DNA of 48,824 bases from an uncultured archaeon (lineage in GTDB: Archaea > Halobacteriota > Methanosarcinia > Methanosarcinales > Methanoperedenaceae), in contig CABMIB010000061.1 of NCBI GenBank assembly GCA_902386135.1, positions 1 through 48,824 on the forward strand, in the 5' to 3' direction. The translations under genes were made by a program, and so were the position numbers. Below the pieces are notes generated by a model. That model did not search any database. It saw only the letters and a list, made by a program, of their open reading frames with translations, and was not told the origin of the DNA. This document shows, piece by piece, positions 10,607 to 16,217 of this stretch; position 1 is the first letter of the stretch; each line of letters starts with the position of its first letter.

Positions 10607-11611
10607 ATGAAACTTTGCGATTTCGATTATCACCTGCCTTCAGAACTTATCGCCCAATCTCCCGTAGAACCGAGGGACTCATCCAGGTTAATGGTGCTCG
10701 GAAAGGATGTTGAGCATCGCTATTTCGCTGATGTCATCGATTATTTTGAAGAAGGGGACACCCTTGTGCTCAACGATTCAAGGGTCATTCCCGCAAAACT
10801 CTCCGGTAAAAAAAGCACGGGAGGGCATGTTGAGGCACTCGTAGTCTCAAAAAGCGATGCAGGGTACGAGTGCCTTATCCGCGGCAAGAACATCCATGAG
10901 GGCACAAACCTCTATTTCGGGGAGCTTGAGGCAACGATACTTGAGGTTATAAAGAACGAGAACGCGAGCAGGTATCTTGTGGAGTTCAACTGTAACGGGA
11001 ACCTGAACGATATACTTGAAAAAATCGGGGAAGCGCCTCTTCCGCCTTATATCAAGAAGAAACTGGATGACAGGGACCGCTACCAGACAGTTTATTCAAA
11101 GGAAAAAGGCTCGATAGCCGCGCCAACTGCGGGCTTGCACTTCACGAACGAGTTATTGGACCGAATAAAGGATAGAGGCGCCAATATCGCTTACGTCACA
11201 CTTCATGTCGGCATTGGCACGTTCGCTCCGGTTAAAGTAGAGACTCTGGAATCCCATACTATGGAGCCTGAGTATATCACAATAAACACGGAAAGCGCGG
11301 AGATAATCAATGGAACAAGAGGAAAGCTGATAGCAGCCGGCACTACTACGGTGAAAGCGCTTGAAAGCTCTTGCGTGGATGGCAAGATAACCGCAAAAGA
11401 AGGGTTCAGTCGGCTTTTTATCTATCCGCCTTATGCTTTTAAATCGAAAATTGATGCAATTATCACGAACTTCCATCTCCCCAAATCTACCCTCCTTATG
11501 CTTGTGAGCGCATTTGCGGGCAGGGAGCGGCTGATGGCTGCCTATAATGAGGCCATATCGAATTCATACAGGTTTTACAGCTTCGGGGATGCAATGCTGG
11601 TTTTCAGGTAA
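10607..11611 (+). CDS. queA: S-adenosylmethionine:tRNA ribosyltransferase-isomerase
   Basis: QueA transfers and isomerises the ribosyl part of SAM onto preQ1 at tRNA position 34, giving epoxyqueuosine. All family blocks are present: FDYHLPSELIAQSPVEPRDSS at the N-terminus, LVLNDSRVIPAKL, YQTVYSKEKGSIAAPTAGLHF, HVGIGTFAPVKVE, TTTVKALESS, and near the end IITNFHLPKSTLLMLVSAF. At 334 residues it is full length. It lies six bases upstream of tgt, whose ribosome site overlaps its stop, so they form an operon. The enzyme is characteristic of bacteria, so its presence among archaeal genes is unusual and suggests past transfer. Confidence 0.95.
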   Translation: MKLCDFDYHLPSELIAQSPVEPRDSSRLMVLGKDVEHRYFADVIDYFEEGDTLVLNDSRVIPAKLSGKKSTGGHVEALVVSKSDAGYECLIRGKNIHEGTNLYFGELEATILEVIKNENASRYLVEFNCNGNLNDILEKIGEAPLPPYIKKKLDDRDRYQTVYSKEKGSIAAPTAGLHFTNELLDRIKDRGANIAYVTLHVGIGTFAPVKVETLESHTMEPEYITINTESAEIINGTRGKLIAAGTTTVKALESSCVDGKITAKEGFSRLFIYPPYAFKSKIDAIITNFHLPKSTLLMLVSAFAGRERLMAAYNEAISNSYRFYSFGDAMLVFR

Positions 11612-11617
11612 GGTATT

Positions 11618-12718
11618 ATGTACGAACTGATCCACACAGATAAAAACAATACGGGGGCGCGGGCGGGAAAGCTCAGGACAAAGCATGGGGTGATCGACAC
11701 TCCGGCGTTCATGCCCGTGGCTACCAAAGGAACTGTGAAGACCCTCATACCCGAAGAACTGTATGACATGGGCACACAGGCGCTCATCAGCAACGCCTTC
11801 CACCTGTTCCTTTCTCCGGGTATGGATGTGCTCCGAAAAGCCGGAGGGCTTCATGAATTCATGCACTGGGAGCGCGCCATCTTCACGGACAGTGGCGGCT
11901 TCCAGATGATACGCAAGGACTTCCCGTTCAAGATTACGGATGAGGGAATTACGTATAAAAACCCCCGCGACGGGAAGAAATACTCATACACGCCCGAGAC
12001 CTGCTTGAACAACCAGAAAACCATTGGCTCCGATGTTGCCATGATTCTTGATGAATGCCCGCCGTATGGAAGCGATCACAGCGCAGTAGAGGCCTCGGTG
12101 GAACGGACGATAAGGTGGGCAGTAAGGGCAAAAGAGGTGGCAAAAAATGAAGGGCAGCTCGTTTTTGCGATATTGCAGGGAGGGACGTTCGCAGAACTGC
12201 GGAAAAAATGCGCGCAGGAACTCGTTTCAATGGATTTTGACGGCTACGGGATAGGCGGGCTGTCCATCGGCGAGCCAAAAGAGGTAATGAACGAGGTATT
12301 AAGGTATAATGTCCCTTTAGTGCCTGAGGACAAGCCGCGCTATCTCATGGGCGTGGGCTCGCCTGTTGAATTGCTTGAAGCTATCGAATCAGGTGTAGAT
12401 ATATTCGACAGCGCCTTCCCTACAAGGAATGCGCGGCACCAGACCCTGATGACCTCAAAAGGGAATGTGGATATAGCCCGCGGAAAATATTCACAGGATT
12501 TTGCACCAATCGATGAGAGCTGCGGGTGCTATACGTGTAAAAACTATACAAGAGCTTATCTGCACCATCTTTTTAAGGAATCCGAGCTGCTTGCGCTGAG
12601 ACTGGCATCCATTCATAATCTGCACTTTATCCAGTCAATAGTGCACGGTGCCAGGGAAGCAATAGTGGAGGATAGGTTTGCTGAATTTAAAGAAAAGGTG
12701 CTGATGAGTTTTCCATGA
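11618..12718 (+). CDS. tgt: Bacterial-type tRNA-guanine transglycosylase
   Basis: TGT exchanges G34 of GUN-anticodon tRNAs for preQ1. Several features mark it as bacterial rather than archaeosine-type. It has 366 residues and no PUA domain. It has TDSGGFQM (catalytic Asp region), where I would expect DSGSFQ in archaeal enzymes. It has LDECPPY, with the Cys of the bacterial substrate pocket, and [32 protein letters not shown]. The zinc site is [17 protein letters not shown] plus a downstream His. GGTAAGG before ATG is the ribosome site. Cotranscribed with queA. What cannot be told is whether it takes preQ1 or a salvaged base. Confidence 0.93.
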
Positions 12719-14995: not shown

Positions 14996-15683
14996 GCCTG
15001 ACTGCCCTCCATACCTTAGAACGTACAGGGGCATAGAATCAGGGCTTCCCGCCCTGCTTGAAGTCTTGGAAAAATATGATGTGAAAGCTACATTTTTTAT
15101 AACCGGCGATGTGGCTTTAAAATACCCGCAGGAGGTAGCAAAGATCGCAAGGCGCTACGAGATCGGATGCCACGGCTACTCACATATGCGTTTTGACAGG
15201 ATGACTTTTGAGGAAGCTGCGGATGAGATTGAAAAGAGCACCGCGGTATTACGCAGGCTTGCCGGCAGGGTTGTCTCTTTCAGGGCGCCCAACCTCATAT
15301 TTCCTGAAAGGTTCCTGGGGCTCCTGAAAGATAACGGGTATTTGATCGATTCGTCCCTTGCTAAGTATAAGGTCGGGCATTTATACAGGATACATGCCGG
15401 CGGTAAAGATGACCTGAATAACGGATTGTTGAGGATCCCGGTATCTGCAACCTCTTCCCTGCTGCGATTACCTCTCGGGAACGGGATACTCCGGCGGCTT
15501 GATTCACCTGTAATCCTGTTCTTCCATCCATGGGAGTTTGTGGACATGAGCGGCGAACCTGTAAGGTGGGACTGCAAGATTAACACTGGCAGCAGGGCAC
15601 TTGCGAGGCTTGAGTCGCTGATAGGGTTTTTTAAGAATAGCAATTACCGTTTCTGTACGCTATCGGATTTCCTGAGGCTTTGA
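14961..15683 (+). CDS. Polysaccharide deacetylase (NodB-like)
   Basis: Carbohydrate esterase family 4-type enzyme removing N-acetyl groups from sugar polymers or lipid-linked sugars. ALTIDIEPDCP gives the first catalytic Asp, ATFFITGDVALKYP the strand after it, GCHGYSHMRF the HxxxH metal ligands, and SFRAPN the RxP motif. HPWEF supplies the C-terminal His. No signal peptide is visible, so it probably acts in the cytoplasm. Its start lies inside the glycosyltransferase gene, so the two are translationally linked and likely modify the same surface glycan. Confidence 0.9.
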   Translation: MMRTVALTIDIEPDCPPYLRTYRGIESGLPALLEVLEKYDVKATFFITGDVALKYPQEVAKIARRYEIGCHGYSHMRFDRMTFEEAADEIEKSTAVLRRLAGRVVSFRAPNLIFPERFLGLLKDNGYLIDSSLAKYKVGHLYRIHAGGKDDLNNGLLRIPVSATSSLLRLPLGNGILRRLDSPVILFFHPWEFVDMSGEPVRWDCKINTGSRALARLESLIGFFKNSNYRFCTLSDFLRL

Positions 15684-16217
15684 TTTATTTTTAGCCTTAA
15701 AATATCGCTCTTTTTCGCTGAAAATGCATCCGCAGTATTTCTGTATATAAAGACCGAGGCTTCTGGCAAGCTCCCGCGATTCCCTGTACCCTTCCCTGAA
15801 ATCCTCGTAATAGAACTCAATGCCGTATTCATCCGCTGCTTTTTTCCCTGCTTCGATGAGCACTTCATGCTTCTGGTAAGGGGATATCAGCAGGGTGGTG
15901 GTAAAAGCCTCAAATCCGAGCGTACTTGCGGTTTTTGCCGCTCCGGTGAGCCTCATCGTATAACAGAACCTGCACCTGTCCTCTGCGTCCAGCGCCCCGC
16001 GCAGGTAGCTCTCGATATCGTAATCGTCCTTATAAATTACCCTGGTTCCTTTTAATTCCACATATTTCTCAAGCGATTCCAGCCTGTTCTTATATTCCAG
16101 GTAAGGGTGTATGTTGGGATTGTAAAAAAAGCCTGTTACGTCGTGCCCTTCTTCGATCAATCGTTTGTGGGGATATGTAAAGCACGGGGCGCAGCAGATA
16201 TGGACAAGGATTTGCAT
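15660..16217 (-). CDS. queH: Epoxyqueuosine reductase QueH
   Basis: QueH (formerly DUF208) reduces epoxyqueuosine to queuosine in tRNA, the last step of the pathway, using an iron-sulfur cluster and a second metal. The diagnostic cysteines are all here: VHICCAPC at residues 5-12, RCRFCYTMRL near 86, and KYCGCIFSEKERY near 160. TTTLLISPYQKHE is the family's central block. Length 185 is normal. It is convergent with the deacetylase, overlapping by 24 bases, and lies 2.9 kb from tgt. With queA and tgt it completes the steps after preQ1. Confidence 0.93.
   Translation of the reverse strand: MQILVHICCAPCFTYPHKRLIEEGHDVTGFFYNPNIHPYLEYKNRLESLEKYVELKGTRVIYKDDYDIESYLRGALDAEDRCRFCYTMRLTGAAKTASTLGFEAFTTTLLISPYQKHEVLIEAGKKAADEYGIEFYYEDFREGYRESRELARSLGLYIQKYCGCIFSEKERYFKAKNKSKPQEIR

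Follow-up and report, generated by a model that had tools for sequence, protein, structure and literature searches.

Genes for a probable queuosine pathway of bacterial origin, lacking a recognisable QueF, in archaea of the family Methanoperedenaceae

The stretch of DNA analysed here (hereafter the window, 48,824 nucleotides) derives from an uncultured archaeon of the family Methanoperedenaceae and carries the genes queA, tgt and queH, all three with intact, in-frame open reading frames. On the forward strand, queA (10607..11611) encodes a tRNA preQ1(34) SAM ribosyltransferase-isomerase of 334 amino acids. The protein belongs to the NCBIfam family NF001140, which it matches over residues 1-333 with 421.7 bits (cut-off 324), and it also scores 388.5 bits with TIGR00113 (cut-off 267.45) and 409 bits with PF02547; its structural relatives in the PDB are 1yy3 and 1vky. 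The tgt gene (11618..12718, forward strand) starts only 6 bases past the queA stop and codes for a bacterial-type tRNA-guanine(34) transglycosylase (TGT). As had been stated in a preliminary description of this DNA, the enzyme has 366 residues and is of the bacterial type: it reaches 467.2 bits with TIGR00430, the Tgt family acting on G34 (cut-off 306.75), and 169.4 bits with TIGR00432, the TgtA family acting on G15, for which the cut-off is 350. The queH gene (15660..16217, reverse strand) lies 2.9 kb beyond tgt, a distance that had been given correctly before. It encodes an epoxyqueuosine reductase of 185 amino acids that exceeds the PF02677 cut-off of 23.5 bits by far (206.5 bits); the NCBIfam search returned no match for this protein.

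The view that queA and tgt form an operon is borne out by the 6-base gap and by the presence of the same bicistron in all nine QueA-positive genomes that were tested. A gene for a SAM hydroxide adenosyltransferase / (R)-SAM hydrolase (9800..10582, forward strand; PF01887 and PF20257) ends 24 bases upstream of queA and is probably co-transcribed with it. A functional link between the two is conceivable because QueA uses SAM, and the hydrolase gene adjoins queA in many, though not all, Methanoperedens loci. Just upstream of this unit lies a tRNA-Arg(TCG) gene (9673-9748, reverse strand), which was found by ARAGORN and by a genome-wide tRNA search and not by the windowed Rfam search at gathering score. 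The queH gene stands outside the queA-tgt operon, on the opposite strand and convergent with the preceding gene. Between tgt and queH there are a small membrane-protein-like ORF, a GT4 glycosyltransferase gene assigned by Pfam (13754..14995, forward strand) and a polysaccharide deacetylase gene (14961..15683, forward strand; PF01522), whose end overlaps that of queH tail to tail. The glycosyltransferase and the deacetylase are outside the pathway, and the glycosyltransferase is kept at this site only among some Methanoperedens. At the Rfam gathering score, neither the window nor any of eight related loci yielded a preQ1 riboswitch.

The remainder of the window holds several further features. 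On the reverse strand, positions 16584-17726 encode a secreted-looking protein with a repetitive tail rich in Thr, Ala and Val and no Pfam match. The region 29500-34500 is an island of low GC content (33-39%, about 47% around it), which contains genes for a PIN-like ORF without Pfam match (30554-31045), an FRG-domain protein (31247-32134) and a HepT-like ribonuclease (32931-33299); in appearance it is an island of toxin-antitoxin or defence genes. A tRNA-Arg(CCT) gene with a 15-base intron (48102-48191, reverse strand) was recognised by Rfam and by ARAGORN run with introns, and it was missed by plain ARAGORN.

The preliminary description had also held that the motifs of the three enzymes are intact, and indeed the catalytic and zinc residues of the TGT and the cysteines of QueH are all present. 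In the numbering of the Zymomonas mobilis TGT, which served as the reference, the archaeal enzyme keeps D102, S103, D156, C158, Q203, G230 and D280, of which D102, D156 and D280 were counted as catalytic, and the zinc ligands C318, C320, C323 and H349 (CxCxxC...H). All these residues are invariant in the 26 archaeal copies that were compared. Moreover, position 233 is occupied by Ile in each of the 26 sequences. Bacterial TGTs use preQ1 as substrate, and in the human enzyme, which uses queuine, the exchange of Val233 for Gly has enlarged the pocket (PMC3660597). Since the archaeal enzymes carry Ile233 rather than the pocket-opening Gly, they look like TGTs of the preQ1 type and not of the queuine type. 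The cysteines of QueH (CC, CxxC and CGC) align with those of the Thermotoga maritima enzyme (PDB 7lc5). Among the potential tRNA substrates, tRNA-Asn(GTT) and tRNA-His(GTG) contain U33-G34-U35; tRNA-Asp(GTC) and tRNA-Tyr(GTA) were not found in the tRNA search of the 120-contig assembly.

Because the QueA, TGT and QueH families are all bacterial by origin, one might suspect that the trio entered the assembly by contamination or represents a passing transfer without function. The window is contig C61 of a genome of 3.24 Mb (120 contigs) that is 99.2% complete with 2.5% contamination. Judging by their translations, ORFs at 35001-36661 resemble mevalonate kinase and isopentenyl phosphate kinase, which is typical of archaea. 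The nearest named relative is "Candidatus Methanoperedens nitroreducens" Mnv1, the QueA of which is 91% identical. In Mnv1 and in the isolate LC 1, the gene order damage-control phosphatase-HAM1-SAM hydrolase-queA-tgt-GT4-deacetylase-queH is identical to that of the window, and parts of it are kept in other Methanoperedens assemblies. This gene order, shared by independent assemblies, and the occurrence of QueA in 33 of the 34 genomes of the family make contamination very unlikely, as had been anticipated. Together with the trees described below, they also led us to reject a chimeric contig. Furthermore, the catalytic residues are invariant and the archaeal sequences form a clade with a long common history, so that contamination or a non-functional transfer is barely credible as an explanation. 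The bit scores, together with the conservation of QueA in 49 genomes, exclude a chance resemblance.

These 49 genomes were found among 186 genomes of the order to which the window belongs. In the phylum as a whole, QueA was detected in nine of 393 genomes, and all nine fall within this order. Apart from the window's own family (f1, 33 of 34), QueA occurs in 15 of the 17 genomes of family f3 and in one of the six of family f4, which may be the ANME-2a/b/c families, and in none of the other families. The genomes of f1, f3 and f4 in which QueA was not detected are 56 to 83% complete. QueH and the bacterial-type TGT accompany QueA in all nine QueA-positive genomes tested; in six QueA-negative relatives, QueH was absent and the matches to the TGT family were TgtA- and ArcS-like only. 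One genome (G192) contains two near-identical queH neighbourhoods on the contigs C24 (L134) and C38 (L135), which reflect either a duplication or redundancy of the assembly.

The TGT tree had been named beforehand as a test that could overturn the assignment of the enzyme, and it places the archaeal proteins among the bacterial position-34 TGTs and outside the archaeosine clade. Within the bacterial-type TGTs they form a single clade (support 100/100) that branches as (f4,(f3,f1)), and a 100/100 split, with very long branches leading to TgtA, separates them from the archaeosine TGTs that these genomes also encode. In the same tree TgtA branches likewise, with a weak node for f1 and f3 (87/23). 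The tree, the low TIGR00432 score and the active-site residues thus rule out that the enzyme is a variant archaeosine TGT. The QueA tree comprised the protein of the window, 27 other archaeal QueA sequences and bacterial ones from the Bacillota and Pseudomonadota. Here, f1, f3 and f4 again form one clade (98/91), with f4 outside f3 and f1, and this clade is distinct from the bacterial sequences sampled. As close bacterial relatives are lacking, the QueH tree gave no useful rooting. Although the trees are based on a limited bacterial sample, the single archaeal clade found for both QueA and TGT fits one acquisition before f1, f3 and f4 split, which would have been followed by vertical descent and some losses.

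A bacterial-type TGT need not have retained its original task. TGT relatives such as DpdA and ArcS have changed roles, and one may imagine that the archaeal enzyme performs another 7-deazaguanine reaction, such as forming archaeosine elsewhere or modifying DNA, and that QueA and QueH act on another substrate. We regard this as very improbable. By its scores the TGT belongs to the position-34 family, and it falls far short of the cut-off for TgtA; the queuosine-specific enzymes QueA and QueH are found in exactly the same genomes among those tested. The trio is best read as the terminal part of a queuosine pathway.

The genome of the window also encodes the archaeosine route. The preliminary description had listed tgtA and queC among the genes to be looked for in the complete genome, and both are present, together with ArcS. 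TgtA (633 bits) and ArcS (699 bits) exceed their cut-offs, and their genes lie on contig C1, with a distance of about 3 kb between them; QueC is encoded on contig C86. QueC was found in all nine QueA-positive genomes, and a relative (G455) carries a folE-queE-queD cluster. For these reasons, preQ0 should be available in the cells. Clusters of queC, queE and queD occur around queC in a QueA-negative family and are absent from the queC neighbourhoods of the QueA-positive ones. In two Methanoperedens genomes, we also observed queE-folE clusters with a bacterial-type FolE I (L212, 9269-10581; L213, 10160-11773, the latter with queD).

The origin of preQ1 is less obvious. The preliminary description had assumed that the three enzymes make queuosine from preQ1, and had named queF and a queuine transporter as further genes of interest. 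The enzymes are as it named them, but the precursor step has no recognised counterpart: QueF (PF14489) was found in none of the nine QueA-positive genomes tested, which leaves the de novo pathway incomplete, and of the importers, neither QPTR/YhhQ (PF02592) nor QueT (PF06177) is encoded in the same nine genomes. As a control, the QueF model detected the enzyme in eight of nine QueA-bearing bacteria, the exception being Lactococcus. Across the 186 genomes of the order, a single match exceeded the QueF cut-off (G436:C66:700-936). The contig in question (L211, 1-20000), which was binned with a Methanoperedens genome, is phage-like and carries homologues of QueC, QueE, FolE and QueF-II next to replication and recombination genes. 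It possibly represents a virus with 7-deazaguanine DNA or contamination by a bacterial phage, and because of its phage-like surroundings this QueF was not taken as a gene of the host. Weak QueF matches in two other genomes (G432 and G455) were discarded, as they are located in or at the FolE (GTP cyclohydrolase) genes. The family PF12822, which includes QrtT, gave only weak matches, in QueA-positive and QueA-negative genomes alike. However, importers of queuosine precursors from several further families are known, and many predicted salvagers do not possess the classic ones (PMC11130926). Thus, the absence of a known importer is no strong argument against uptake.

Two ways of obtaining preQ1 other than its direct uptake have to be considered. 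First, preQ0 could be reduced to preQ1 inside the cell by an enzyme that is unrelated to QueF or too divergent from it to be recognised, after which TGT, QueA and QueH would complete the synthesis. QueF is absent from genomes in which QueA is nearly universal and known importers were not found, and the QueC proteins of all nine QueA-positive genomes and the adjacent folE, queE and queD genes of one Methanoperedens genome are compatible with such a route. To our knowledge, no nitrile reductase of this kind has been described besides QueF. Moreover, there is no candidate gene: no plausible reductase stood out near queC, and beyond queA and tgt no gene is common to all neighbourhoods of the trio that were sampled. 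Neither queA-tgt nor queH has a further conserved neighbour that might replace QueF or act as importer. Internal reduction therefore appears somewhat doubtful, and the narrower proposal appears doubtful that a reductase unrelated to QueF lets the archaea derive queuosine from the preQ0 which they produce for archaeosine. Second, queuine might be taken up, cleaved to preQ1 by a QueL-like lyase and rebuilt to queuosine by TGT, QueA and QueH. Such an indirect route has been described in bacteria (PMC11130926); it does not require QueF and agrees with Ile233, which speaks against a direct use of queuine. Next to queA-tgt, none of the loci sampled has a QueL-like gene, and we consider this route improbable.

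We therefore favour direct uptake of preQ1, for which the odds appear to be about even; a supply from outside is more likely than one by a hypothetical preQ0 reductase. Given that no QueF is recognisable, preQ1 would most likely be provided by neighbouring bacteria and enter the cell via a putative importer. The bacterial-type TGT would then exchange G34 for preQ1 in tRNAs with GUN anticodons, QueA would attach the epoxycyclopentane moiety derived from SAM, and QueH would convert epoxyqueuosine to queuosine. The genes, their residues, their distribution and their trees were observed directly; these reactions and their product are predicted from sequence with good confidence. In the same cell, TgtA would insert preQ0 at position 15, from which ArcS would make archaeosine, so that two TGTs would draw on one 7-deazaguanine pool. 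Taken together, the trio probably constitutes the functional last part of a queuosine pathway that originated in bacteria. A common ancestor of several families of the order would have gained it in a single event, and it would since have been inherited vertically. No published measurement of queuosine in these archaea was found in the open-access journal literature searched.

Queuosine is usually described as a modification of bacteria and eukaryotes only, with de novo synthesis in bacteria alone (PMC8204110; PMC11130926). If the proposed pathway is correct, queuosine would occur beside archaeosine in almost all members of one family of methane-oxidising archaea and in parts of two others, and the two TGTs of a cell must distinguish position 15 from position 34 as well as preQ0 from preQ1. 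The gap at preQ1 could mean either that these archaea, like eukaryotes, rely on bacteria around them to supply a micronutrient for their tRNAs, or that there is a further type of nitrile reductase.

The core of this finding is not new, as QueA, QueH and Tgt have been reported by Castelle et al. (2021) for 34 archaeal genomes, among them DPANN and some Methanosarcinales, and were described there as a bacterial queuosine pathway that is complete or partial (PMC8204110). These are the same three genes as in the window, and the archaea concerned include members of its order; neither QueF nor preQ1 is mentioned in the main text of that paper. What is new here is the spread across the order, the trees with their single archaeal clade, the co-existence with archaeosine synthesis and the preQ1 gap. 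An archaeal relative of QueF in 7-deazaguanine metabolism is QueF-L (QueF-Like), which is the archaeosine synthase of Crenarchaeota and makes archaeosine instead of preQ1 (PMC5485725). The genomes studied here gave no convincing match to it, with a model that is weak for this branch and reached the Sulfolobus control only at E values of up to 0.1. The archaeosine pathway of TgtA and ArcS, present in the same genome, has preQ0 and the TGT fold in common with the pathway proposed here; TgtA acts at position 15, however, and very long branches lie between it and the queuosine TGT. The bacterial salvage of preQ1, which relies on TGT, QueA and QueH or QueG and dispenses with QueF, is comparable; Lactococcus lactis, an example of it, likewise has QueA and QueH, and QueF was not found there in our control search. 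This bacterium differs in possessing the importer QueT, whereas the archaea have no recognised QueT or YhhQ; moreover, Lactococcus was not among the controls matched by the QueC family, whereas the archaea have QueC for the synthesis of archaeosine.
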